A stretch of 64,000 bases of DNA, taken from an uncultured Pseudomonadota bacterium (lineage in GTDB: Bacteria; Pseudomonadota; Gammaproteobacteria; Methylococcales; Methylomonadaceae). Shown here one piece after another: positions 4,121 to 58,311 of this stretch (within the stretch, counting starts at the first letter, position 1; every line of letters begins with the position of its first letter). The stretch is taken from assembly GCA_903928965.1 (NCBI GenBank), contig CAIYSZ010000087.1:1-64000 (forward strand). Direction: 5' to 3'. Both the position numbers and the translations under genes were made by a program. The notes beneath the pieces were generated by a model. It did not search any database and was not told the DNA's origin. It saw nothing but the letters and a program-made list of their open reading frames with translations.

Positions 4121-4208
4121 TGGCGGAGAGAAAGGGATTCGAACCCTTGATACGTTGCCGTATACACACTTTCCAGGCGTGCGCCTTCGACCGCTCGGCC
4201 ATCTCTCC
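4121..4208 (-). tRNA. tRNA-Ser (anticodon GGA)
   Basis: The minus strand reads GGAGAGATGGCCGAGCGG at the 5' end, with a CTGGAAA anticodon loop (GGA), a long serine-type variable arm, GGTTCGAATCC in the T arm and a matching TCTCTCC acceptor strand. Discriminator G and an encoded CCA follow. Its 3' end faces the accessory patch with the cas genes, the usual side for integration of genomic islands into tRNA genes. Confidence 0.95.
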
Positions 4209-48343: not shown

Positions 48344-48721
48344 GATAAATTTTAAATTTTTACTATTTTACCTAAATTATGCTGCGCGGGCCATGACGAG
48401 ACTCAATGTACGGCATGGAATGCAAAGCCATAAAAATGAGCATTCCGGGCGTGAAGTTTTTAAATACTGATAACTTTTTCACGTTAGGCTTTCCCTGGAA
48501 CATGAAGCGCGATAGAATCCGATATTGAAATGTCAGCCGCCAGCTTAAGCCGATACAATCGCTTTGGCAATGCTAAAGTCTTTTGGCGCTAAGCCGGCCT
48601 TGGCTGCCGGGGCCGATAGTCGGGACGCCGCCACTATGTCAATCGCCTATCGTCCCCGGTCGCCAAGCCCTTAAGTGATTGGCTGGCTTGATGTAAGTCT
48701 CGGCTTAGACCGGATGGAGCT
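48344..48721. other. Intergenic region upstream of the T6SS operon
   Basis: About 380 bases lie between divergent tusD and the TagH gene. The left part is AT-rich. The right part holds the structured repeat described at 48594-48690. The T6SS promoter is presumably here, but no confident -35/-10 pair could be named. Confidence 0.45.
48594..48690. repeat. Structured palindromic repeat, copy 1
   Basis: The arms CTTGGCTGCCGGGGCCGATAG (48599-48619) and CTATCGTCCCCGGTCGCCAAG (48647-48667) pair at 18 of 21 positions. Flanking CCGGCC before and AAGTGATTGG after resemble those of the element at 58018-58231. It lies 30 bases before the TagH start. Confidence 0.6.
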
Positions 48722-50053
48722 ATGAAATTAAAATTAAGCTATCAAAACGAACATGGCGAACATTGCGCGGTGGTGATTTGCGAGCAAGGCGGTACCATCG
48801 GCCGTAGCGCGGATCGTACCTTGGTTTTGAAAGAACCGAGTATTTCGCGCGAGCACGCCGAGATTTTCTATCAATCCGGTCAATTTTGGATTAAGGATAC
48901 CAGCCGGGCTGGAACTTATATAATCAATAAGCAGCTTAAATTGACGCATAATGAAAGCGCCGCTCTGGAGCATCACGATTTAATTGCTATCGGCGGGCTA
49001 CAGATTAGCGCTGAATTGCTCGAAGCTGAATCCGCGGCTTTTCATTCGCCGTTTGGAGCCGCCATGCCCGCTCCCCCCACTACGCCGACGCCGCCGGCCG
49101 CCCCGGCGCCGGTTATTCCGCCGCCCGCCGCGCCCGCCTGGGAGCCGGCCCCGGTCGAGGCCGCTTTTCCGTTTCCGTCCGCGCCGCCGGTGGCAGCGCC
49201 GATGCCGGCGGCCGCGCCCAGTTTTTTAGCCGCCGCGCCGCCAGCAGCCGAGCCGCCGCCAGCTCAGGCCGCCGCTCCTTTTTTGGCTCCGGAGTCGAAT
49301 CCGCCTTTGGCCGCGCCGTTTTTCGGCGATGCGTTTAAAGCGTCGAGTCCGGGGTTCCAAAGCCCGTTCGCCGCGGCTCCGGAAACCGCGGCGGAGTTCC
49401 CGGCCGCGCATCCGGGGCCGGGTTTTTCTGCGTCGCCCGCGGCGGGTTTTAGCTTGGCTTCCGGCGGCGCGGATTTTCCGCAAGCATCCGGCGGTCAGTT
49501 CGCCGGTGATGTGTTGCGCCCGTTTTTAATCGGCGCCGGTTTATCGGGGGAAGCGGGAATTAGGCCGGAACAGACGGAAGCCACTTTAACCCTGATCGGG
49601 GCTGTTTTTAGACTGATGGTGACCGGTTTAATGGAAACTTTGCGCGCGCGTTCGGAAATCAAATACGATTTGGGGGTCGGCGGCACCACCATCCAAGGGA
49701 TGGATAATAACCCGATCAAATTTCTGCACGATGTGGATGCATTGATCATGAGTTTGATCAAACCGGATAATCCGGGTTTTTTGCCGCCGCAAGAGGCGGT
49801 GAATCAAGCTTTCCGGGACGCCATGCTGCATCAAATCGCCATGATGGCTGGGGTGCAGGCGGCCGTTTATCAGGTTATTGAACGCTTTGATCCCAAACAT
49901 ATCGAGGAACAGGTGGGCGAGGGCGTGTTTAAGAAATCCAAATGTTGGGAAGAGTATTGCCAAAAGTTTCCGGAACTGAGAAACTCGGCCGTGGAGCATT
50001 TTTTTGGCGAGGCTTTTGCAATGGCCTACGAAAAGAAATTAAAATCCTCGTAA
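48722..50053 (+). CDS. tagH: Type VI secretion FHA-domain protein TagH
   Basis: The 443-residue protein has an N-terminal forkhead-associated domain (about 20-95: TIGRSADRTLVLKEPSISREHAEIF with SRAGTYI), which binds phosphothreonine. A long Pro/Ala-rich disordered linker follows (about 115-255), then a C-terminal TagH/Fha domain (LRPFLIGAGLSGEAGIRPEQTEATL and ALRARSEIKYDLG). In T6SS systems Fha is phosphorylated by PpkA and promotes assembly. It heads the secretion cluster, upstream of tssK. Track ORFs in other frames in the linker are shadows caused by its GC-rich composition. Confidence 0.85.
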   Translation: MKLKLSYQNEHGEHCAVVICEQGGTIGRSADRTLVLKEPSISREHAEIFYQSGQFWIKDTSRAGTYIINKQLKLTHNESAALEHHDLIAIGGLQISAELLEAESAAFHSPFGAAMPAPPTTPTPPAAPAPVIPPPAAPAWEPAPVEAAFPFPSAPPVAAPMPAAAPSFLAAAPPAAEPPPAQAAAPFLAPESNPPLAAPFFGDAFKASSPGFQSPFAAAPETAAEFPAAHPGPGFSASPAAGFSLASGGADFPQASGGQFAGDVLRPFLIGAGLSGEAGIRPEQTEATLTLIGAVFRLMVTGLMETLRARSEIKYDLGVGGTTIQGMDNNPIKFLHDVDALIMSLIKPDNPGFLPPQEAVNQAFRDAMLHQIAMMAGVQAAVYQVIERFDPKHIEEQVGEGVFKKSKCWEEYCQKFPELRNSAVEHFFGEAFAMAYEKKLKSS

Positions 50054-50209
50054 AGTTTACAAAATATGGCTATGTTAATGAAATACAGAAGGTCTTTTGT
50101 TTACAAGACCGTATGCCAGCGATTACCATACACATAACCATACACCTAGAGAATTGTTGTTTATAGCTTATAACTGATTGTTTTGTAATTCATAACTTAT
50201 AAAAAAAAT

Positions 50210-51562
50210 ATGTCGGCGAAAAATCGAGTCATCTGGTCCGAAGGGATGTTTTTACGGCCACAGCACTTTCAGCAGCACGATAGGTTTATAGAAAGCCGCA
50301 TCAATGGCCGAGCGCGCGGTTTAAAAGCCCACGATTGGGGTTTTAGCCTACTGGAAATCGACCAGCAGCAATTATTGGCCGGCAAATTGGTTATTTTAAG
50401 AGCGTGCGGAATTTTTAGCGACGGCACGCCGTTTAATATTCCACAGGATGATCAAGTCACCTTGGCGCTGGATTTGGAGCCGGGGCTGATCAATACCACG
50501 ATTAAATTGGCGTTGCCGATTTTCCGGCATAATGCGGCGGAAATCGACAGCGAACACGCCCCCGACGCCATGGCCCGCTACCGGATACGCAACGAGGACG
50601 TCAGCGATCATCTTTCCGACGCGGATAGCCGCTATACTTTACAAACAGCTTGCATCCAGCCGCGGCTGGTTTTGGGCGACAAGGAGTTGTCGGGTTACCA
50701 TTGCCTGAACGTGGCGCACGTGATTGAGGTAAGCAACGATAAGGCGGTTCGTTTGGACAAGGAATTCATTCCCGTCATTTTGCAATCTTCCGTCAGCGAG
50801 GTGTTAAGCGGCTGGTTGCAGGAATTAAAAGGCATGCTGCGGGTCAGGGGGGACAGTTTGGCGCAGAGTCTTTCCGAATCCTCTTCCAAAGGCGGAGCCG
50901 AGCATTTTATTTATTTGCAGAGCGTCAATCGCTATGAACCCTTGATCGGGCATTTGGCCGCCATGGGTCACGCTCACCCGGAGGACGTATATCAGCTCAT
51001 GCTGCTGATGCTGGGCGACTTCGCCATTTTCGATAAAAAAGACGGCGGCGAGACGCGCGTGCGCAAGCGGCCGAAAATCGACGCGGATTACCGGCACGAG
51101 GATTTGCGATTCTCCTTTTCCAAAGTGATTGAGGAACTGCGCCGGGTGTTGAGCGATATGTTGCGCTCGCCGGCCGAACGCGTGCCGTTGCAAGTGCACC
51201 AAGGGGTGTACCACTATTCGGACCCGCAGAAAAAATTGCCGTTCTTGGAGACCGGCCGCTTCATTTTGGCCGCCAAGGCCAATGTGGACCCTAGCCAGTT
51301 GATTCGGGATTTCGCCGGTCAGGCCATCATAGCCTCCGGCAATCAGATCAACGATCTGGTCAAGGCCGGCGTACGCGGCGTGGATTTAAAATCCTTGCCG
51401 CTGATGCCGCCGGAAATTCCCTACCATGACGGTTTTTGTTATTTCGAGTTGATTAAGTCCGGGTCTTATTGGCAGAACTTGCAGCAAGGCGGCGGTATCG
51501 TTTTTTACGTGGCCGGCAAGTTCCCGGGATTGGAGCTTGAATTATGGGCCATTCAAACTTGA
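50210..51562 (+). CDS. tssK: T6SS baseplate protein TssK
   Basis: The 450-residue protein starts NRVIWSEGMFLRPQHFQQHDRFIE, the TssK signature. It continues with GRARGLKAHDWGFSLLEID and late motifs RFILAAKANVDPSQLIRDF and MPPEIPYHDGFCYFEL. TssK connects the baseplate to the membrane complex. AT-rich DNA with TATAAAAA precedes its ATG, and about 155 bases separate it from tagH, so a separate promoter is possible. A GGTCTT/AAGACC hairpin lies in that gap. Confidence 0.93.
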   Translation: MSAKNRVIWSEGMFLRPQHFQQHDRFIESRINGRARGLKAHDWGFSLLEIDQQQLLAGKLVILRACGIFSDGTPFNIPQDDQVTLALDLEPGLINTTIKLALPIFRHNAAEIDSEHAPDAMARYRIRNEDVSDHLSDADSRYTLQTACIQPRLVLGDKELSGYHCLNVAHVIEVSNDKAVRLDKEFIPVILQSSVSEVLSGWLQELKGMLRVRGDSLAQSLSESSSKGGAEHFIYLQSVNRYEPLIGHLAAMGHAHPEDVYQLMLLMLGDFAIFDKKDGGETRVRKRPKIDADYRHEDLRFSFSKVIEELRRVLSDMLRSPAERVPLQVHQGVYHYSDPQKKLPFLETGRFILAAKANVDPSQLIRDFAGQAIIASGNQINDLVKAGVRGVDLKSLPLMPPEIPYHDGFCYFELIKSGSYWQNLQQGGGIVFYVAGKFPGLELELWAIQT

Positions 51563-51576
51563 CAGGTGATTAAATT

Positions 51577-52878
51577 ATGGCGCAAGGACCTTTCGGAAAC
51601 ACTACCTTCGGCAATACGGTATTGCCGACTCCCGGCGGCGTAGGTTCGGCGGGACCCGCTTTCGTGAATCCTCCGGAGCCGGCGTTTACGCCGCCGCGTT
51701 CCGAATTCAAACCTTTATACGAAGTGTCGCGAGCTTCCTTGCTGGAACTGGCCGCGCCCTTGCTGTCCTTGGCGTTTCGATTGAAAAATTCCTTGAGTTA
51801 CGCCAATATTGATGAATTAAAAAAACGGTTGGCGGCCGAAATCAAACTATTTCAAAGCAAATCCGGCAGCCTGGGGCTGACCGCCGAGCAAATCAACGTC
51901 GCCAGTTTCGGCTTGTGTTGCTATTTGGACGAAACCATTCAAAACACGCCCTGGGGGCACCAGCACCATTGGTGGCGGGAAAACTTGCTGATCCAATTTC
52001 ACGGCGTCGCCGACGGCGGCGAGATGTTTTTCAGGAACATCGAATATCTGGTCAAGCAACCGTCGGAGCAGTTGCGCTTGATTCAATTGTATTATGTATT
52101 GCTGAGTCTCGGTTTTAAAGGCAAATATGGCTTGAGCGCCGACTCCGCCGGCCAGTTGGATAAAATCCGCACCGAGTTGTACCACTTGAACCAAAGTTTC
52201 GCCACCGACCCCGCCAATGAGCTTTCGATAGACTGGATGGGGCAAAAAGCCGGCGGCAACCGCTTCGTCGCTCAGGTGCCGGCTTGGGTGTTCGCTTCGG
52301 TGGCGCTAGGTTTATTGCTGTTTATCTACCTGGGGTTTTATTACGCCATCAACGGTTATTCGACGCCGGTTTACCGGGATTTGCTTATGTTGTCCGGCGA
52401 GCGCTTGCTGGAGCCGACATCCAACAATAGTTCCGCGGCTCCGGCCCAGCCGGCGGCGGCGGAGCCCAAATCCCTGGAGCGGTTTAAGGTTCTGCTGCGT
52501 GACGAAATCGCCGCCAATATGGTCGAGGTGGTGGATGACAACATTATCCGCGTCAGAAATTCCTTTCTTTCCGGCAGTGACCAGATCAAACCCGAATTCA
52601 TGCCGATGTTGAAAAAAATCGCCAAGGAACTGGAAAATCATCAAGATTCCATCGTCGTCACCGGCCATACCGATGACAAGCCGATTATTTCCGCCCGTTT
52701 TCCTTCGAATTGGCAATTATCGGTGGCTAGAGCCAATAACGTGCTGAATATATTACGTGACTCCGGCCGCTTCGGGGCGGCGCGGGCGGAAGGTTTAGGA
52801 GACGGCCAGCCTTTGGCGCCGAATGACAGCGCCGAGCATCGCGCGCTTAACCGCAGAGTGGACATTTTTGTCAAGTGA
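51577..52878 (+). CDS. tssL: T6SS membrane protein TssL with OmpA-like C-terminus
   Basis: The 433-residue protein has a Pro/Gly-rich N-terminus and a DotU/TssL cytoplasmic domain (about 45-220, with QINVASFGLCCYLDETIQNTPWG). One membrane helix, VFASVALGLLLFIYLGFYYAI, is followed by a C-terminal OmpA-like peptidoglycan-binding domain (SIVVTGHTDDKPI, LSVARANNVLNIL). This is the extended class of TssL that anchors itself to the cell wall. It follows tssK by 14 bases and precedes tssM by ten. Confidence 0.93.
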   Translation: MAQGPFGNTTFGNTVLPTPGGVGSAGPAFVNPPEPAFTPPRSEFKPLYEVSRASLLELAAPLLSLAFRLKNSLSYANIDELKKRLAAEIKLFQSKSGSLGLTAEQINVASFGLCCYLDETIQNTPWGHQHHWWRENLLIQFHGVADGGEMFFRNIEYLVKQPSEQLRLIQLYYVLLSLGFKGKYGLSADSAGQLDKIRTELYHLNQSFATDPANELSIDWMGQKAGGNRFVAQVPAWVFASVALGLLLFIYLGFYYAINGYSTPVYRDLLMLSGERLLEPTSNNSSAAPAQPAAAEPKSLERFKVLLRDEIAANMVEVVDDNIIRVRNSFLSGSDQIKPEFMPMLKKIAKELENHQDSIVVTGHTDDKPIISARFPSNWQLSVARANNVLNILRDSGRFGAARAEGLGDGQPLAPNDSAEHRALNRRVDIFVK

Positions 52879-52888
52879 GTGATAGATC

Positions 52889-55800
52889 GTGAAACCATTG
52901 CTTAACTTTTTGCAGAAAAAATGGGTCCTGGAACTGATAGCCGTATTGGTGCTATGCCTGTTGATCGTTTTTATCGGTCCATTAATCGCCATAGCCGGCG
53001 ACGTGTTGCTTGAATCCTGGATTAGCAGGCTGCTGGCGGTCGCCGTGGTATTCGGCGTGTGGTTGACTTACCGCTTGGTCAATTATTGGCTATTGAAAAA
53101 GAAGGAACGCTCATTATTCGCCGATCTGTCCGCCGGGCAAGGCGAGGGCGGCGCGGTGTCCGAGGAGTTGTTGACCTTAAAGCGCAAATTCGAGGATGCG
53201 CTGAAATTATTGGAAGCCACGCCGGGGCGTAAACGCGGCGGCGGTCATTTTCTGTATCAATTGCCGTGGTATGTCATCATCGGCGCGCCGGGAGCGGGCA
53301 AAACCACGGCCTTGCTCAATTCCGGCCTGAATTTTCCGTTAAAAGATCAACTAGGGGCCAAAATACAAGGCGTTAGCGGCACCCGCAATTGCGATTGGTG
53401 GTTTTCCGATCAAGCGGTGTTGCTGGACACCGCCGGGCGTTATAGCACCCAGGACAGCGACCGGGAAGCCGACGCCGGAGCGTGGCACGGTTTTTTGCAA
53501 TTGCTAAAAAAACACCGGCCGCGGCGGCCGTTGAACGGCATTTTCCTGGCGGTCAGCATTACCGACGTGTTGCAGCAGTCCGAGGAGAAGCTGGCCGAAT
53601 TCGCCCGCGTCATGCGCATGCGCATCAAGGAGTTGAACGGGCAATTGGGCGTGAATTTGCCGGTGTACGTGTTGTTTACCAAAATGGACATGTTGTCGGG
53701 CTTTAATGAGTTTTTCGCCGATTTGACCGAGACCGAGCGGCAACAAGTGTGGGGCAAAACCTTCGCCTGGTCCGATAAAGCATCTCCGGCCGAGTTGGCG
53801 GAACATTTCAGTCAGGATTATACCGCCTTGGTCGAGCGCTTGAACGTCAGAAGGTTCAAACGCTTGCAGGACGAACGCGACGCGCAGCGGCGCGCCTTGA
53901 TCTTTGATTTCTCGCAACAACTGACCTTGTTGAAACCGGATATTCTCTGTTTTATAAAGGAAACCTTCGCCACTAACATTTACGAGACGCCGTTTATTTT
54001 CCGCGGTGTTTATTTCACCAGCGGTACGCAGGAAGGCACCCCGTTCGACAAAATCATGTCCGCCTTGACCGAGTCCTTTGATTTGCGCGACAGGCAAGCG
54101 CTGTCGCCGATTGCGGTGAAGGGCAAAAGCTATTTTTTGACCAAATTATTGCGCGACGTCGTCATTCCTGAAGGCGAATTGGTCGGCGTCAACCAAGCAG
54201 CGGAGCGCCGCCACCAGTTGGTGAAATTGGGTTCCTATATTTCCGTGGCGCTGCTAGTGGTGTTGGGCGCGGCGGGTTGGACCTTCAGTTTTACCGGCAA
54301 TAAAATGGCCATCTCTGAAATTGAACAACAGGTGGAAAAGTTTAAAGCCAATCGTCTGGTCGCCAGCGATATTAGAAACGATTTGCTGACCTTAAGCGCC
54401 AAAATGGACGCCTTGTTGGCGGCGCGCAATGTTTACCGCGAGTCGCCTATGTTTACCGGCCTGGGTTTGTCCCAGCAAGACAAGTTGGAAAACGGCGCGC
54501 GCATTGCCTATGAAAGAGTGTTGCGCGAATCGTTCGCGCCTTTGCTGAGCTGGCGCTTGAAGGAGCGCATGCAAGGCGCTGAAGGGCAGCAGTTGGATAA
54601 TTTGTATCAGCTGCTGACGGTTTATCTGATGTTATCCGAGCCGGCGCGGATGGATAAAAAAGTCGCCGCGCCTTGGATCGGCGCGGATTGGCAAAGCTTG
54701 TTCCTGACCGACCCGGCCGTGCAAGCCAGTTTGCAAACCCATTTGGTTAATTTGCTGGATTTGAGCCTGGACCCGTTGCCGGCGGATTACAACTTCGTCA
54801 ACGCGGCGCGCGTCAAACTGACGCAAATTCCGCAGGCGGCCCAGGTGTACTCCGTATTCAAAAGCGAGGGCTTGTACGATCACGAACACGATTTAGTTTT
54901 GGCCAAGGCTTTGGCGCCGAACGGCGAGCGGGTTTATGTCACCAAGAACGGCGCTTCCCTGCAAACCTTGGTAGTGCCGGGATTATTCACGGGTTACGGT
55001 TTTACCGAGATATTCCTGAAAAAAGGCATGGATTACGTCAAACAGGCCAACGAGCAAAACTGGGTGCTGGGCGTTGACGGCAAGGATACCGACGTCAACA
55101 CCGATCGTTTGTACAGTGATTTGAAGCGCCTGTATCTGGCGGATTACCAGAAAATTTGGCTGGACGACGTATTGGCGCTGAATTTGAAACCGCAAGCCAA
55201 TAACAACCAATTGATAGACACGCTGGATGTTTTGTCGCGCCCCGATTCGCCGTTGAAATTGCTGTTGCAGACCGTGGAAAAGAATACCGCTTTGAGCAAA
55301 TTGTCCGCCGACGCGGCGGCGGCGTTGACCAAAACCGGCGAAACGGCCTTGGCCGCCGCCGCGCCCAAGGCCATGCAAAAATTCCTGCCCAAGCCGGCGC
55401 TGAACGTAACCGGGCAAGATCCGATCGTCCAGTTCGAGGAGGCGTTCGAGCCGTATAATTCGCAAGTCCGTTCGCCGGAAGCCTTGAACCGGTCATTGGA
55501 GAGCATCAAAAACGCGCATGACCGCTTATTGATGGCCAGCGGGCAAAACAATAGCGGCGCCGGCTTGGATGCGCTCTTGGCCTTGCAAAGCGAGGCCTCC
55601 GCGCTGCCGGACAAGGTGGCGGCCCCGTTGAAAAAAGTAGTTAGGGAAGCCCGCGCCGGCAGTCTGGGCGACGCCAAGCAGGAATTGAACAAGGCGCTGG
55701 CGGTGGAAGTGAGCCAGCCTTGCCGCAATTTGCTGGCCGGGCGCTATCCATTCGCCCCCGGCGCGTCGCAAGACGTATTGTTGGCGGATTTCGGCAAGGT

Positions 55801-56374
55801 GTTCGGCGGCAACGGCATACTGGATCAATATTTCAATAATCATTTGAAAATTCTCGTCGATACCACGACTAAAACCTGGTCGGAAATGAATTCGGAGAAA
55901 TCGCTGGGCTTGTCGAGCGCTGCGTTGGCGCAATTTCAAATTGCCGCGCATATCCGTAACGCATTCTTTGCCGGCGGCGGCGTGCCGCAATTGCAATTCG
56001 ATTTGAAACCGATCGAGCTGGACGACCGCATCGGCACTTTCCGCTTGAATATAGAGGGCCAGGAACTAGTGTACCGGCACGGACCGGAGCAGATCACCAG
56101 CTTCAAATGGCCGGGCGTCGCCGTCAACGCAGGCGTGCGGGTGGTGTTTGAAACCTTGGACGGCAAGCAGGTCAGCCGGCAAAAAGAAGGGGCCTGGGCC
56201 TTGTTTAGAATGCTGGATCAATTTCATATTGAACCGACCAATTTACCTGAGCGCTTTATTTTGACCGTGACTGTCGACGACTATAAGGCGCGCTTTGAAC
56301 TGCGCGCCGCCAGTGTGGATAATCCGTTCAAGATGACGGACTTTCAAAATTTTCATTGTCCGGATGCGTTATAG
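52889..56374 (+). CDS. tssM: T6SS membrane-complex protein TssM (IcmF)
   Basis: The 1161-residue inner-membrane protein has two N-terminal helices, a Walker A motif GAPGAGKTT (about 131-139), a cytoplasmic NTPase-like region and a third helix near 450-468 (SVALLVVLGAAGWTFSF). The large periplasmic part includes the IcmF/VasK-type C-terminal beta domain (FRLNIEGQELVYRHGPEQITSFKWPG). TssM spans the envelope and joins TssL and TssJ. It uses a GTG start at 52889. No TssJ lipoprotein gene is adjacent. Confidence 0.93.
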   Translation: MKPLLNFLQKKWVLELIAVLVLCLLIVFIGPLIAIAGDVLLESWISRLLAVAVVFGVWLTYRLVNYWLLKKKERSLFADLSAGQGEGGAVSEELLTLKRKFEDALKLLEATPGRKRGGGHFLYQLPWYVIIGAPGAGKTTALLNSGLNFPLKDQLGAKIQGVSGTRNCDWWFSDQAVLLDTAGRYSTQDSDREADAGAWHGFLQLLKKHRPRRPLNGIFLAVSITDVLQQSEEKLAEFARVMRMRIKELNGQLGVNLPVYVLFTKMDMLSGFNEFFADLTETERQQVWGKTFAWSDKASPAELAEHFSQDYTALVERLNVRRFKRLQDERDAQRRALIFDFSQQLTLLKPDILCFIKETFATNIYETPFIFRGVYFTSGTQEGTPFDKIMSALTESFDLRDRQALSPIAVKGKSYFLTKLLRDVVIPEGELVGVNQAAERRHQLVKLGSYISVALLVVLGAAGWTFSFTGNKMAISEIEQQVEKFKANRLVASDIRNDLLTLSAKMDALLAARNVYRESPMFTGLGLSQQDKLENGARIAYERVLRESFAPLLSWRLKERMQGAEGQQLDNLYQLLTVYLMLSEPARMDKKVAAPWIGADWQSLFLTDPAVQASLQTHLVNLLDLSLDPLPADYNFVNAARVKLTQIPQAAQVYSVFKSEGLYDHEHDLVLAKALAPNGERVYVTKNGASLQTLVVPGLFTGYGFTEIFLKKGMDYVKQANEQNWVLGVDGKDTDVNTDRLYSDLKRLYLADYQKIWLDDVLALNLKPQANNNQLIDTLDVLSRPDSPLKLLLQTVEKNTALSKLSADAAAALTKTGETALAAAAPKAMQKFLPKPALNVTGQDPIVQFEEAFEPYNSQVRSPEALNRSLESIKNAHDRLLMASGQNNSGAGLDALLALQSEASALPDKVAAPLKKVVREARAGSLGDAKQELNKALAVEVSQPCRNLLAGRYPFAPGASQDVLLADFGKVFGGNGILDQYFNNHLKILVDTTTKTWSEMNSEKSLGLSSAALAQFQIAAHIRNAFFAGGGVPQLQFDLKPIELDDRIGTFRLNIEGQELVYRHGPEQITSFKWPGVAVNAGVRVVFETLDGKQVSRQKEGAWALFRMLDQFHIEPTNLPERFILTVTVDDYKARFELRAASVDNPFKMTDFQNFHCPDAL

Positions 56375-56392
56375 GCAGGGGAGGATAGCATC

Positions 56393-57967
56393 ATGCTGAA
56401 AACAAAAGGCGTGGGTTTTTTCGGCAAGCTTCCGGCATTGGGCGATTTTGTCTCCCGGCGTCTGAGTCCGCAATTCGTGAAATGCTGGGACGATTGGTTG
56501 CACGAGTCTCTACTCGCCAGCCGTGGACAATTGGGAGATACTTGGCTGGACAGTTTTTTAATCAGTCCGGTGTGGCGGTTTTTTTTGGGTCCCGGCATTT
56601 GCGGCGATCAAGCCTGGGTCGGCATCATGATGCCGAGCGTGGATCGGGTGGGCCGTTATTTTCCGTTAACCTTGGCGCAAAACGTGGACCCGGTTCAACT
56701 GCCGGCGATCTATTGCGAACAAGAGCGCTTTGATGCGCTGGAAAGCTTGGCCTTAAGCGTGCTGACGCCGGATTTTGCATTCGATCAATTCGATCTAGCC
56801 TTGGCGGCGGCCACGTTGACGCCAGCGGCGGAGATGCCGTCCGCGCCAAGTTTGATCGACGAGGATAAATTGGGCTATAAATTGGATGGCTTGCATCAAT
56901 TGCCATTGTTGAATGCCTTGTTGTTGCAGCGTTTGTTGGGCGAAGCCGGAGTCAAGAGCTTTAGTCTGTGGTTGGCGAAAAATACGCATGAGGGCAAGTC
57001 GCAATTTTATTGCTTCGATGGTTTGCCCAAGCCGGATGAATTCAGTTTTTTGTTGCTGGGCAGACGGGCTGAAGCGCCGGCCGCCGTGAATAAGCCGGTT
57101 GAAGCGCCCGGTTTTTTTAATCCGGCCCAGGATGCCAAGCCCGGCGATTTCTTGGAGTCCGGGAATGCGTCCACGGTCTTTCCTTTCGTTTCGGCGATTG
57201 ATCCGCCGCCGGCGGAAACTTTTTTTCCGGATTTGGAATTAAACCATAAACGGGTGGCGGGCTATGGTAAAACCGTTGTAGGCAATGTGCGCAAGCATAA
57301 CGAGGACTCTATGCTATTGTTGCCGGAATGCGGCGTTTGGCTGGTGGCCGACGGCATGGGCGGCGGCATGGCGGGCGATTACGCCAGCCAATCGGTGGTG
57401 GAGGCGGTTGCTTCGGTGGCGAAGCAAGACACTGTGGATTTGCAAATAGAGGCAGTGGCCGCCCGCTTGCAGAAGGTTAACGCGGATTTATTCGACTATG
57501 CCGCCAAGCTTAGCGCCGGCGGCGTGGTTGGTTCCACGGTTGTGATATTATTAATAAAGGGCGAGGAATGCGGCGCTATTTGGGCCGGCGATAGCCGTTT
57601 ATACCGTTATCGGCAAGGACAGTTGACGCAATTGACCAGAGACCATTCCGCCATCCGGGATTATATGGATTTGCATAACATCAGTTTTGATCAGGCGGCC
57701 ACGGTGGTGAATGCGAACGTCATTACCCGAGCCATCGGCGCGGACCGGAAAGTCGATTTGGACACTATGCGTTTCACCGCGCAAGCGGGCGACCGTTTTC
57801 TGTTATGCAGCGATGGCCTGGATAAGGAGTTGCGGGATGAGGAGATCGAACAATTGATGCGGCAAGGCGATTGTCAGGCAACGGTGGAAAATTTGATTGC
57901 GCAGGCTTTGCAAAATAAAGGGCGCGATAACATCACTGCTATCGTGGTTGATTTTAACGAAGCGTGA
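56393..57967 (+). CDS. TagF-PppA fusion, T6SS regulator and protein phosphatase
   Basis: The 524-residue protein joins two domains. Residues 1-210 are TagF (DUF2094: VGFFGKLPALGDFVSRRL, then WVGIMMPSVDRVGRYFPLT), a repressor of T6SS that binds Fha. After a linker, residues about 290-524 are a PP2C phosphatase with GNVRKHNEDSM, LVADGMGGGMAGDYAS, WAGDSRLYRYR, RAIGAD and LLCSDGLDKEL, as in PppA. Agrobacterium tumefaciens has a similar fusion. It would remove phosphate from threonine marks placed by PpkA. GAGGATAGCATC precedes the ATG. Confidence 0.9.
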   Translation: MLKTKGVGFFGKLPALGDFVSRRLSPQFVKCWDDWLHESLLASRGQLGDTWLDSFLISPVWRFFLGPGICGDQAWVGIMMPSVDRVGRYFPLTLAQNVDPVQLPAIYCEQERFDALESLALSVLTPDFAFDQFDLALAAATLTPAAEMPSAPSLIDEDKLGYKLDGLHQLPLLNALLLQRLLGEAGVKSFSLWLAKNTHEGKSQFYCFDGLPKPDEFSFLLLGRRAEAPAAVNKPVEAPGFFNPAQDAKPGDFLESGNASTVFPFVSAIDPPPAETFFPDLELNHKRVAGYGKTVVGNVRKHNEDSMLLLPECGVWLVADGMGGGMAGDYASQSVVEAVASVAKQDTVDLQIEAVAARLQKVNADLFDYAAKLSAGGVVGSTVVILLIKGEECGAIWAGDSRLYRYRQGQLTQLTRDHSAIRDYMDLHNISFDQAATVVNANVITRAIGADRKVDLDTMRFTAQAGDRFLLCSDGLDKELRDEEIEQLMRQGDCQATVENLIAQALQNKGRDNITAIVVDFNEA

Positions 57968-58311
57968 ATTTATTCGGGGTCATCACGGTAAGGACGCAAA
58001 AGACTATTGGTTGAGCGCCGGCCTTGGCGGCCGGGAGTAATTGTCGGGGGACGCCGTGAATACGTCCATGTAGGCTTGGGGTCGGCATCCATGCCTCCCA
58101 CACCCCCGCCAATTACTCCGCCGCCAAGGCCTCGGGTGATTGGGGGGCGCAAGTCTTTCACCAAATTACTTCCGTTTGCCAAGACCTTGGGTGATTGGGG
58201 GCAAGTCTTCCGCCAATCACTTATCAAAATTTATTAATCGTCGTCTTTAAGCTCTAAGTTTCGGCTGATGGATGGTTAGTGTGTTGAATCTATTATGAAT
58301 GGGAGGTAGGA
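57968..58311. other. Intergenic region with structured repeat
   Basis: This gap of 344 bases between tagF-pppA and the OmpA-like genes is mostly occupied by repeat copy 2. The short track ORFs here (85 residues minus, 76 residues plus) come from the repeat and have no family resemblance. Confidence 0.5.
58018..58231. repeat. Structured palindromic repeat, copy 2
   Basis: The arms CCTTGGCGGCCGGGAGTAATTG (from 58022) and CAATTACTCCGCCGCCAAGG (to 58129) form a long imperfect stem of about 26 pairs with a 52-base loop. CCAAGGCCTCGGGTGATTGG and a second similar block, CCAAGACCTTGGGTGATTGG, follow, then CCAATCACTT as a further partner. The outer sequences match copy 1 near 48594, while the stems differ by compensating changes. 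Confidence 0.65.

Follow-up and report, generated by a model that had tools for sequence, protein, structure and literature searches.

YPAL (RU-2) repeats of Yersinia are reported to generate target duplications of 3–26 bp, with both empty and filled sites between Yersinia species (PMC2229807); a 168-nt YPAL/RU-2 sequence has been published (PMC2759123, Table 1b). Among regulatory RNAs, the consensus of the RsmA/CsrA proteins is (A/U)CANGGANG(U/A) (PMC6849547), CANGGANG apical hexaloops are reported to be high-affinity targets, with an optimal distance of 18 nt between the two sites bound per CsrA dimer (PMC4894983), and the TwoAYGGAY motif combines two hairpins of the ANGGAN type with a further external stem (PMC4333381). 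Here, we analyse two palindromic elements, A and B, which flank type VI secretion system (T6SS) genes in a 64,000-nucleotide stretch (hereafter, the window) of contig CAIYSZ010000087.1 from an uncultured bacterium of the Methylomonadaceae (assembly GCA_903928965.1). Both very probably belong to a mobile, non-autonomous family of palindromic repeats, similar to miniature inverted-repeat transposable elements (MITEs), with a conserved folded core. The family is dispersed and mostly intergenic, and its folded core is common to gammaproteobacterial repeats, including the Yersinia YPAL (Ysr224 in Rfam). We further propose, tentatively, that gammaproteobacterial mobile palindromes, while changing their ends and arms, keep a predicted twin CsrA/RsmA core and may seed genomes with tens to hundreds of sites or decoys.

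Elements A and B and their relatives in the same genome

Element B (positions 58018–58144, plus strand) is a full-length family member with a long stem P1, hairpins P2 and P3 and the tail GTGATTGG. It is matched with 136.2 bits (E = 3.2e-31) by R1, a covariance model of 129 positions derived from 31 copies of the same genome, B included and A excluded. Element A (48594–48683, plus strand) is a different kind of copy, in which both arms are kept, hairpins P2 and P3 are lost and a short loop stands in their place; the R1 alignment (51.6 bits, E = 1.3e-10) bypasses the core, and the arms are matched separately by a profile. The significant R1 matches in the window are these two elements, each also read on its other strand. 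Both lie where a preliminary description of this DNA had placed them, and CCGGCCTTGGC occurs exactly in each. The same description had recognized a common right tail, GCCAAG...GTGATTGG, although the gap is 7 nt (GCCAAG-N7-GTGATTGG) rather than 3; the interval that it extended to 58231 does hold B but also includes a solo right-arm fragment adjoining it (GCCAAGACCTTGGGTGATTGG, 58163–58198, plus strand; profile match of 12.7 bits, L001:1674–1709; direct repeat D9). As had been noted, the stems are separate and internally complementary, with z-scores of −5.0 for B as DNA, −3.7 for B as RNA and −3.25 for A as RNA, and each element folds better than 200 of 200 shuffles. The approximate outer limits of B (58000–58157, unstranded) are set by the DNA fold and an outer inverted repeat, AAGACT...AGTCTT, with no empty site behind these ends; the approximate full extent of A (48540–48713, unstranded) rests on its sequence, with a weak outer inverted repeat CCAGCTTAAGCCG.../...CGGCTTAGACCGG, and on a flank alignment of the 31 copies, in which the copies agree on an end consensus near GGCTACCAG.YTAAGCCGGGACAA. 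Outer inverted repeats are weak in the family of this genome generally.

Searches of the 3.25-Mb genome returned 56 blastn matches to B and 100 matches to R1, the latter merging into 69 distinct loci, at least one of which (L035) is core-deleted and similar to A. With genes taken as open reading frames (ORFs) of at least 130 aa rather than curated annotations, intergenic copies lie between tandem (17), convergent (7) or divergent (7) genes or at contig edges (3), and the tandem cases show no strand preference (9 v 8). A second subfamily with Methylotuvimicrobium-like arms (...GTCAAAGGACGCC.../...ACACCTTTG...) is also present in this genome (G000:C70:17847–17975, C98:5790–5918 and C72:31609–31738).

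A branched core shared across the class

In the intact element, hairpins P2 and P3 branch from a three-way junction that is closed by P1. P2 has the form GCC-GTGAA-TNC-NTCCNT-GNA-GGC, where the GTGAA bulge is unpaired on the 5' side, and the loop of P3 is ATCCNT. The conserved core of B, the part common to other genera and to YPAL/Ysr224, spans 58041–58116 (plus strand) and is matched with 90.3 bits by R2, a core model of 76 positions trained mostly on copies picked by an exact P2 27-mer, as well as by a sub-threshold Ysr224 alignment. Within it, P2 (58053–58075, plus strand; GCC-GTGAA-TAC-GTCCAT-GTA-GGC) has a covarying stem and presents a CATGGACG loop on the opposite strand (offset 74 of the reverse complement), and P3 (58084–58095, plus strand; GGCATCCATGCC), likewise covarying, presents a CATGGATG loop on that strand.

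The exact core 27-mer is found in Methylotuvimicrobium, Methylomonas, Stenotrophomonas, Pseudomonas, Arenimonas, Ectothiorhodospira and others, with different arms in each. R2, which has 72 matches in the window's own genome, also matched copies in 77 of the 369 gammaproteobacterial genomes sampled, which belong to 69 of 272 genera; in a 299-genome sample of the phylum, its matches fell in 19 genomes of the class and, weakly, in one outside it. R1, built from own-genome copies only, also detects copies from Stenotrophomonas, Arenimonas, Thioalkalivibrio and an Enterobacter plasmid (E = 6e-20 to 6e-15), and blastn matches of B to genus relatives are limited to the core. Outer arms and ends are lineage-specific, whereas the core is constant. 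In the SZAS metagenome-assembled genomes (L064, L070, L073 and other loci), 11 of 19 core copies overlap predicted, uncurated ORFs, mostly antisense, unlike in other genomes. A plasmid search with B gave no DNA match, and a phage search yielded only a partial hit of 28 nt to the core consensus, located within a phage Goslar gene (E = 0.009), which we take as chance. A literature search by core sequence found no paper.

The Rfam model Ysr224 (RF02770) aligns to the core of B with 24.6 bits and to the best copy of the same genome with 27.7 bits (best genome-wide E = 4.4e-4), both below its gathering threshold of 70. This threshold is exceeded (72.4 bits) by the YPAL-like copy L259, which lies on an IncN plasmid of Klebsiella and is in turn found by R1 (E = 5.6e-5). 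Hence, the models match each other's copies through a homologous folded core, while the arms and ends of YPAL/Ysr224 are not those of the present family, as the arms differ in alignments A2 and A3 (see below). The published YPAL/RU-2 sequence has the same core inside and ends that agree with the Ysr224 consensus; therefore, Ysr224 and YPAL are the same repeat. The plasmid copy (L259:801–964) is unannotated and adjoins an alcohol dehydrogenase gene on a conjugative plasmid of wastewater Klebsiella/E. coli and on plasmids like it (17 plasmid records). In the literature searched, no paper tying YPAL to repeats outside enterobacteria was found.

Compensatory changes in the stems

In the own-genome alignment (A1), both sides changed in 23 of 46 pairs, with a covariation score of 0.251 v 0.123; the corresponding values were 14 of 19 pairs and 0.477 v 0.146 in A2, and 17 of 19 pairs and 0.731 v 0.195 in A3. 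None of 500 shuffles reached the observed scores in any alignment, all three helices show strong compensatory change, and the signal in A1 is lost when partners are shifted by 1–3 columns. Covariance modelling, suggested in the preliminary description along with a genome-wide search, found a fold kept through compensatory changes in a repeat of about 69 loci, which supports the idea that the fold is selected or maintained; the refuting outcome named in that description, a lack of other copies and of a conserved fold, did not occur.

The stems differ freely among genomes and remain Watson-Crick, with 6 G-T cells out of 1,650 and 16 A-C cells in A3. We infer that the strict match of the arms owes its persistence to copying from one arm to the other at the DNA level (palindrome correction), or to selection for a DNA form, and not to RNA selection alone, because G-T pairs are few and a selected RNA would be expected to use more G-U. 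Arm copying during replication or DNA-form selection would account for the compensating stem changes without any RNA function; neither can account for the conserved unpaired bases. Strand inference from mismatches (G-T v A-C, 28 v 44, 2 v 9 and 6 v 16, and 68 v 40 in a Methylotuvimicrobium subfamily) was rejected, since the subfamilies disagree.

Insertion of related copies as discrete units

Copies in relatives insert as a discrete unit with target duplications. In Methylotuvimicrobium, L093 reads AATAAT-TA-[TACC...GGTA]-TA-CACTG where L119 has the empty site AATAAT-TA-CACTG, with TA duplicated, and L105 reads ...CCTTA-[element]-CCTTA... against a single CCTTA in L087, with approximately CCTTA duplicated. 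Presence and absence at orthologous sites, as in MITEs, is thus seen in these relatives rather than in the window's own subfamily, and together with the copy number it bears out the earlier suggestion that the palindromes spread as a mobile family. There are at least two kinds of Methylotuvimicrobium insertion, which have the core in common and differ in ends and target duplication. Because one subfamily duplicates TA and another approximately CCTTA, the elements would be moved by transposases that work on their outer ends in trans.

One 5.1-Mb Methylotuvimicrobium genome holds approximately 474 right ends of the TA-duplicating subfamily, v 1 for a reversed control pattern; in this genome, M. 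buryatense 5G (L063 genome, G686/G249), they would amount to an estimated 1.5% of the sequence if all copies were about 160 bp. Methylotuvimicrobium probably shares the family of the window's host, because genome G249 is listed under that family and its matches lie at the same positions as in the M. buryatense record. At the loci examined, the core is intact in 51 of 59 end-bounded copies and mostly damaged in the rest, and in two copies (L132 and L168) it is inverted relative to the ends. An additional hairpin (GCGCCATGGATGGCGTGAATGTCGATTTTGCAGGAGCAAAAATCGACC) is inserted at one right-arm position in several Methylotuvimicrobium copies (L142, L152, L168 and L167).

Predicted CsrA/RsmA sites and competing explanations

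The TCCNT loops, the complement of ANGGA, were seen in own-genome copies and set as a prediction before 40 further copies were examined. Over 87 copies found by R2, the P2 loop reads T (87), C (87), C (86), N, T (87) and the P3 loop T (87), C (87), C (87), N, T (83); P2 always has a closing C-G pair and P3 has one in all copies except two, while the neighbouring pairs covary. On the opposite strand, CANGGANG is present in P2 of 85, in P3 of 78 and in both hairpins of 76 of the 87 copies, mostly spaced by 23 nt, and 16 of the 31 own-genome copies have both exact motifs. The paired CANGGANG hairpins expected of CsrA/RsmA-binding RNA are thus present. The strand opposite to the one drawn here would form two RsmA/CsrA-type hairpins binding one CsrA dimer, and transcripts passing through the element in the GGA direction would act as CsrA/RsmA sites or decoys. 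Judged from sequence and predicted folds, it is possible, with the odds leaning the other way, that the core is conserved as such a twin site, which would make element transcripts candidate sites or decoys.

Several observations weigh against the mobile-family reading or the CsrA proposal. As to mobility, the own family gave no clean target duplication, its flanks being too old; the window's own subfamily, the copies of which look old, gave no empty site; and a search by end patterns in two genomes identified no cognate transposase for any subfamily. Empty sites orthologous to A and B were also sought in genus relatives, where the intergenic DNA is too diverged for any to be read. As to CsrA, the invariance of P2, although not that of P3, was partly preset by choosing R2 training copies on the exact P2 27-mer, and an Rfam search in and near the element at E ≤ 10 gave no match to the CsrB, RsmY, RsmZ or TwoAYGGAY families. 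Invariant positions outside the loops (A21, C41, T42 and the GTRAA bulge) are unexplained by CsrA. Copies between tandem genes in other genomes favour the UCC strand (57 sense v 25 antisense, p = 0.0005), on which the Rfam Ysr224 small RNA is also annotated; selection against CsrA sites within mRNAs could give the same bias, at the cost of an added assumption. The csrA gene is present in 72 of 77 core-bearing genomes v 240 of 292 others; this association (Fisher p = 0.013) is weak and confounded, and could stem from genome reduction. No paper dealing with both CsrA and YPAL was found.

The near absence of G-T pairs from the stems, whichever strand is read, the lack of a consistent strand signal in the mismatches and the retention of the core even when it is inverted relative to the ends would also fit a core recognized at the level of DNA, as a folded single strand or cruciform that a nuclease, transposase or replication factor contacts through the TCCNT loops, with no role as RNA. 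We consider this a possible contender about as probable as a twin CsrA/RsmA site; however, the occurrence of the same core with different ends and duplications in two subfamilies makes a single core-reading insertion transposase unlikely, and the variable loop positions coincide exactly with the any-base positions of the CsrA consensus. The UCC bias in tandem spacers of other genomes, which is most marked close to the stop codon of the upstream gene (40 v 15), and the strand of the Ysr224 annotation point instead to a plus-strand RNA element that would act in mRNA 3' regions, by stability or attenuation, or would pair its UCC loops with Shine-Dalgarno sequences; reports summarized in PMC2229807 likewise hold that YPAL might affect upstream transcript stability. 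Yet this bias is absent in the window's genome and slight in M. buryatense (26 v 19), the stems are devoid of the G-U pairs usual for RNA families, and the genes on either side of many copies are divergent or convergent, so that we regard such a function as rather improbable. The role in transcript processing suggested in the preliminary description is not supported by these data, no strand-specific signal being consistent.

The positions of A and B directly before tagH and after tagF-pppA could also suggest that they bracket a T6SS segment that was transferred horizontally or resembles a composite transposon. The genome, however, has about 69 loci and, on draft contigs, 20 pairs of neighbouring copies within 9.5 kb v approximately 13 expected at random, so the T6SS pair, as one of these, is unremarkable; A is devoid of the core, the recognizable outer ends of A and B differ, and we hold bracketing to be very improbable. 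Because B stands approximately 51 bp after a stop codon, an ordinary intrinsic terminator or a chance palindrome in GC-rich intergenic DNA could be imagined, but membership of a sequence family refutes this to near certainty, as do the covariation, the conservation of unpaired positions and the occurrence of copies between divergent genes.

Setting beside the T6SS genes and wider meaning

The T6SS genes between A and B were confirmed by Pfam. An FHA protein of the tagH type (48722–50053, plus strand; T6SS_FHA_C, 7.5e-45, and FHA) has its start codon approximately 38 bp after A, and a TagF-PppA type fusion protein (56393–57967, plus strand; TagF_N, 5.8e-45, and PP2C_2) ends upstream of B. B puts UCC rather than GGA loops in the T6SS mRNA and A is without the core; thus, no effect of the core on the T6SS is predicted. 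The only above-threshold Rfam match in the window is a tRNA gene (4124–4208, minus strand).

The position beside the T6SS is ordinary, and the wider interest lies in the mobile repeat that is represented here, which occurs across the class and has a strikingly conserved branched core that outlasts its outer ends. YPAL, known in the literature from Yersinia and relatives, is now joined to a class-wide family. If the twin CsrA/RsmA proposal is true, mobile repeats would both supply and soak up target sites of a global post-transcriptional regulator, and CsrA titration could be affected in one methanotroph, which has an estimated 470 copies; in the opposite case, the invariance of the loops and bulge would indicate that some other factor recognizes this structure throughout the class.

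Comparison with known systems

YPAL/RU-2 (RF02770, Ysr224) has the same three-way-junction core, the same conserved unpaired positions, both CANGGANG loops on the opposite strand and the nature of a small dispersed mobile repeat, whereas its arms and ends are unrelated and the window's copies also occur between divergent genes. ERIC (IRU/RU-1) is likewise a small, intergenic, MITE-like palindrome of Gammaproteobacteria, the right end of which, TTGAAGTNNGA..GTATA, is like that of one Methylotuvimicrobium subfamily, a likeness not significant alone (E = 0.21). It is the TA-duplicating subfamily (TATACCC...GGTATA, TTGAAGTGCGA; L181 and L076-type copies) that the ends of E. coli ERIC (TATACTC...GAGTATA, TTGAAGTATGA) resemble; membership in ERIC was rejected, as the best R2 score is 3.9 bits and the core is unmatched. 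The GTAG- and CGTC-tagged families of repetitive extragenic palindromes (REPs) are also dispersed short intergenic palindromes (PMC3733652), but are made of 20–40 bp units with a tetranucleotide tag at one end, whereas the window's family is at least 130 bp long with a branched core, and its GTAG-like position varies (GTAG, GGAG, GGGG, GAAG). An origin from REPs and their associated tyrosine transposases (RAYTs) was accordingly rejected, the tag not being fixed and the target duplications differing. Finally, the CsrB, RsmY and RsmZ small RNAs and the TwoAYGGAY motif (RF01731) have, like the present core, paired hairpins with ANGGAN loops; here, by contrast, the motif is borne by a high-copy mobile repeat.

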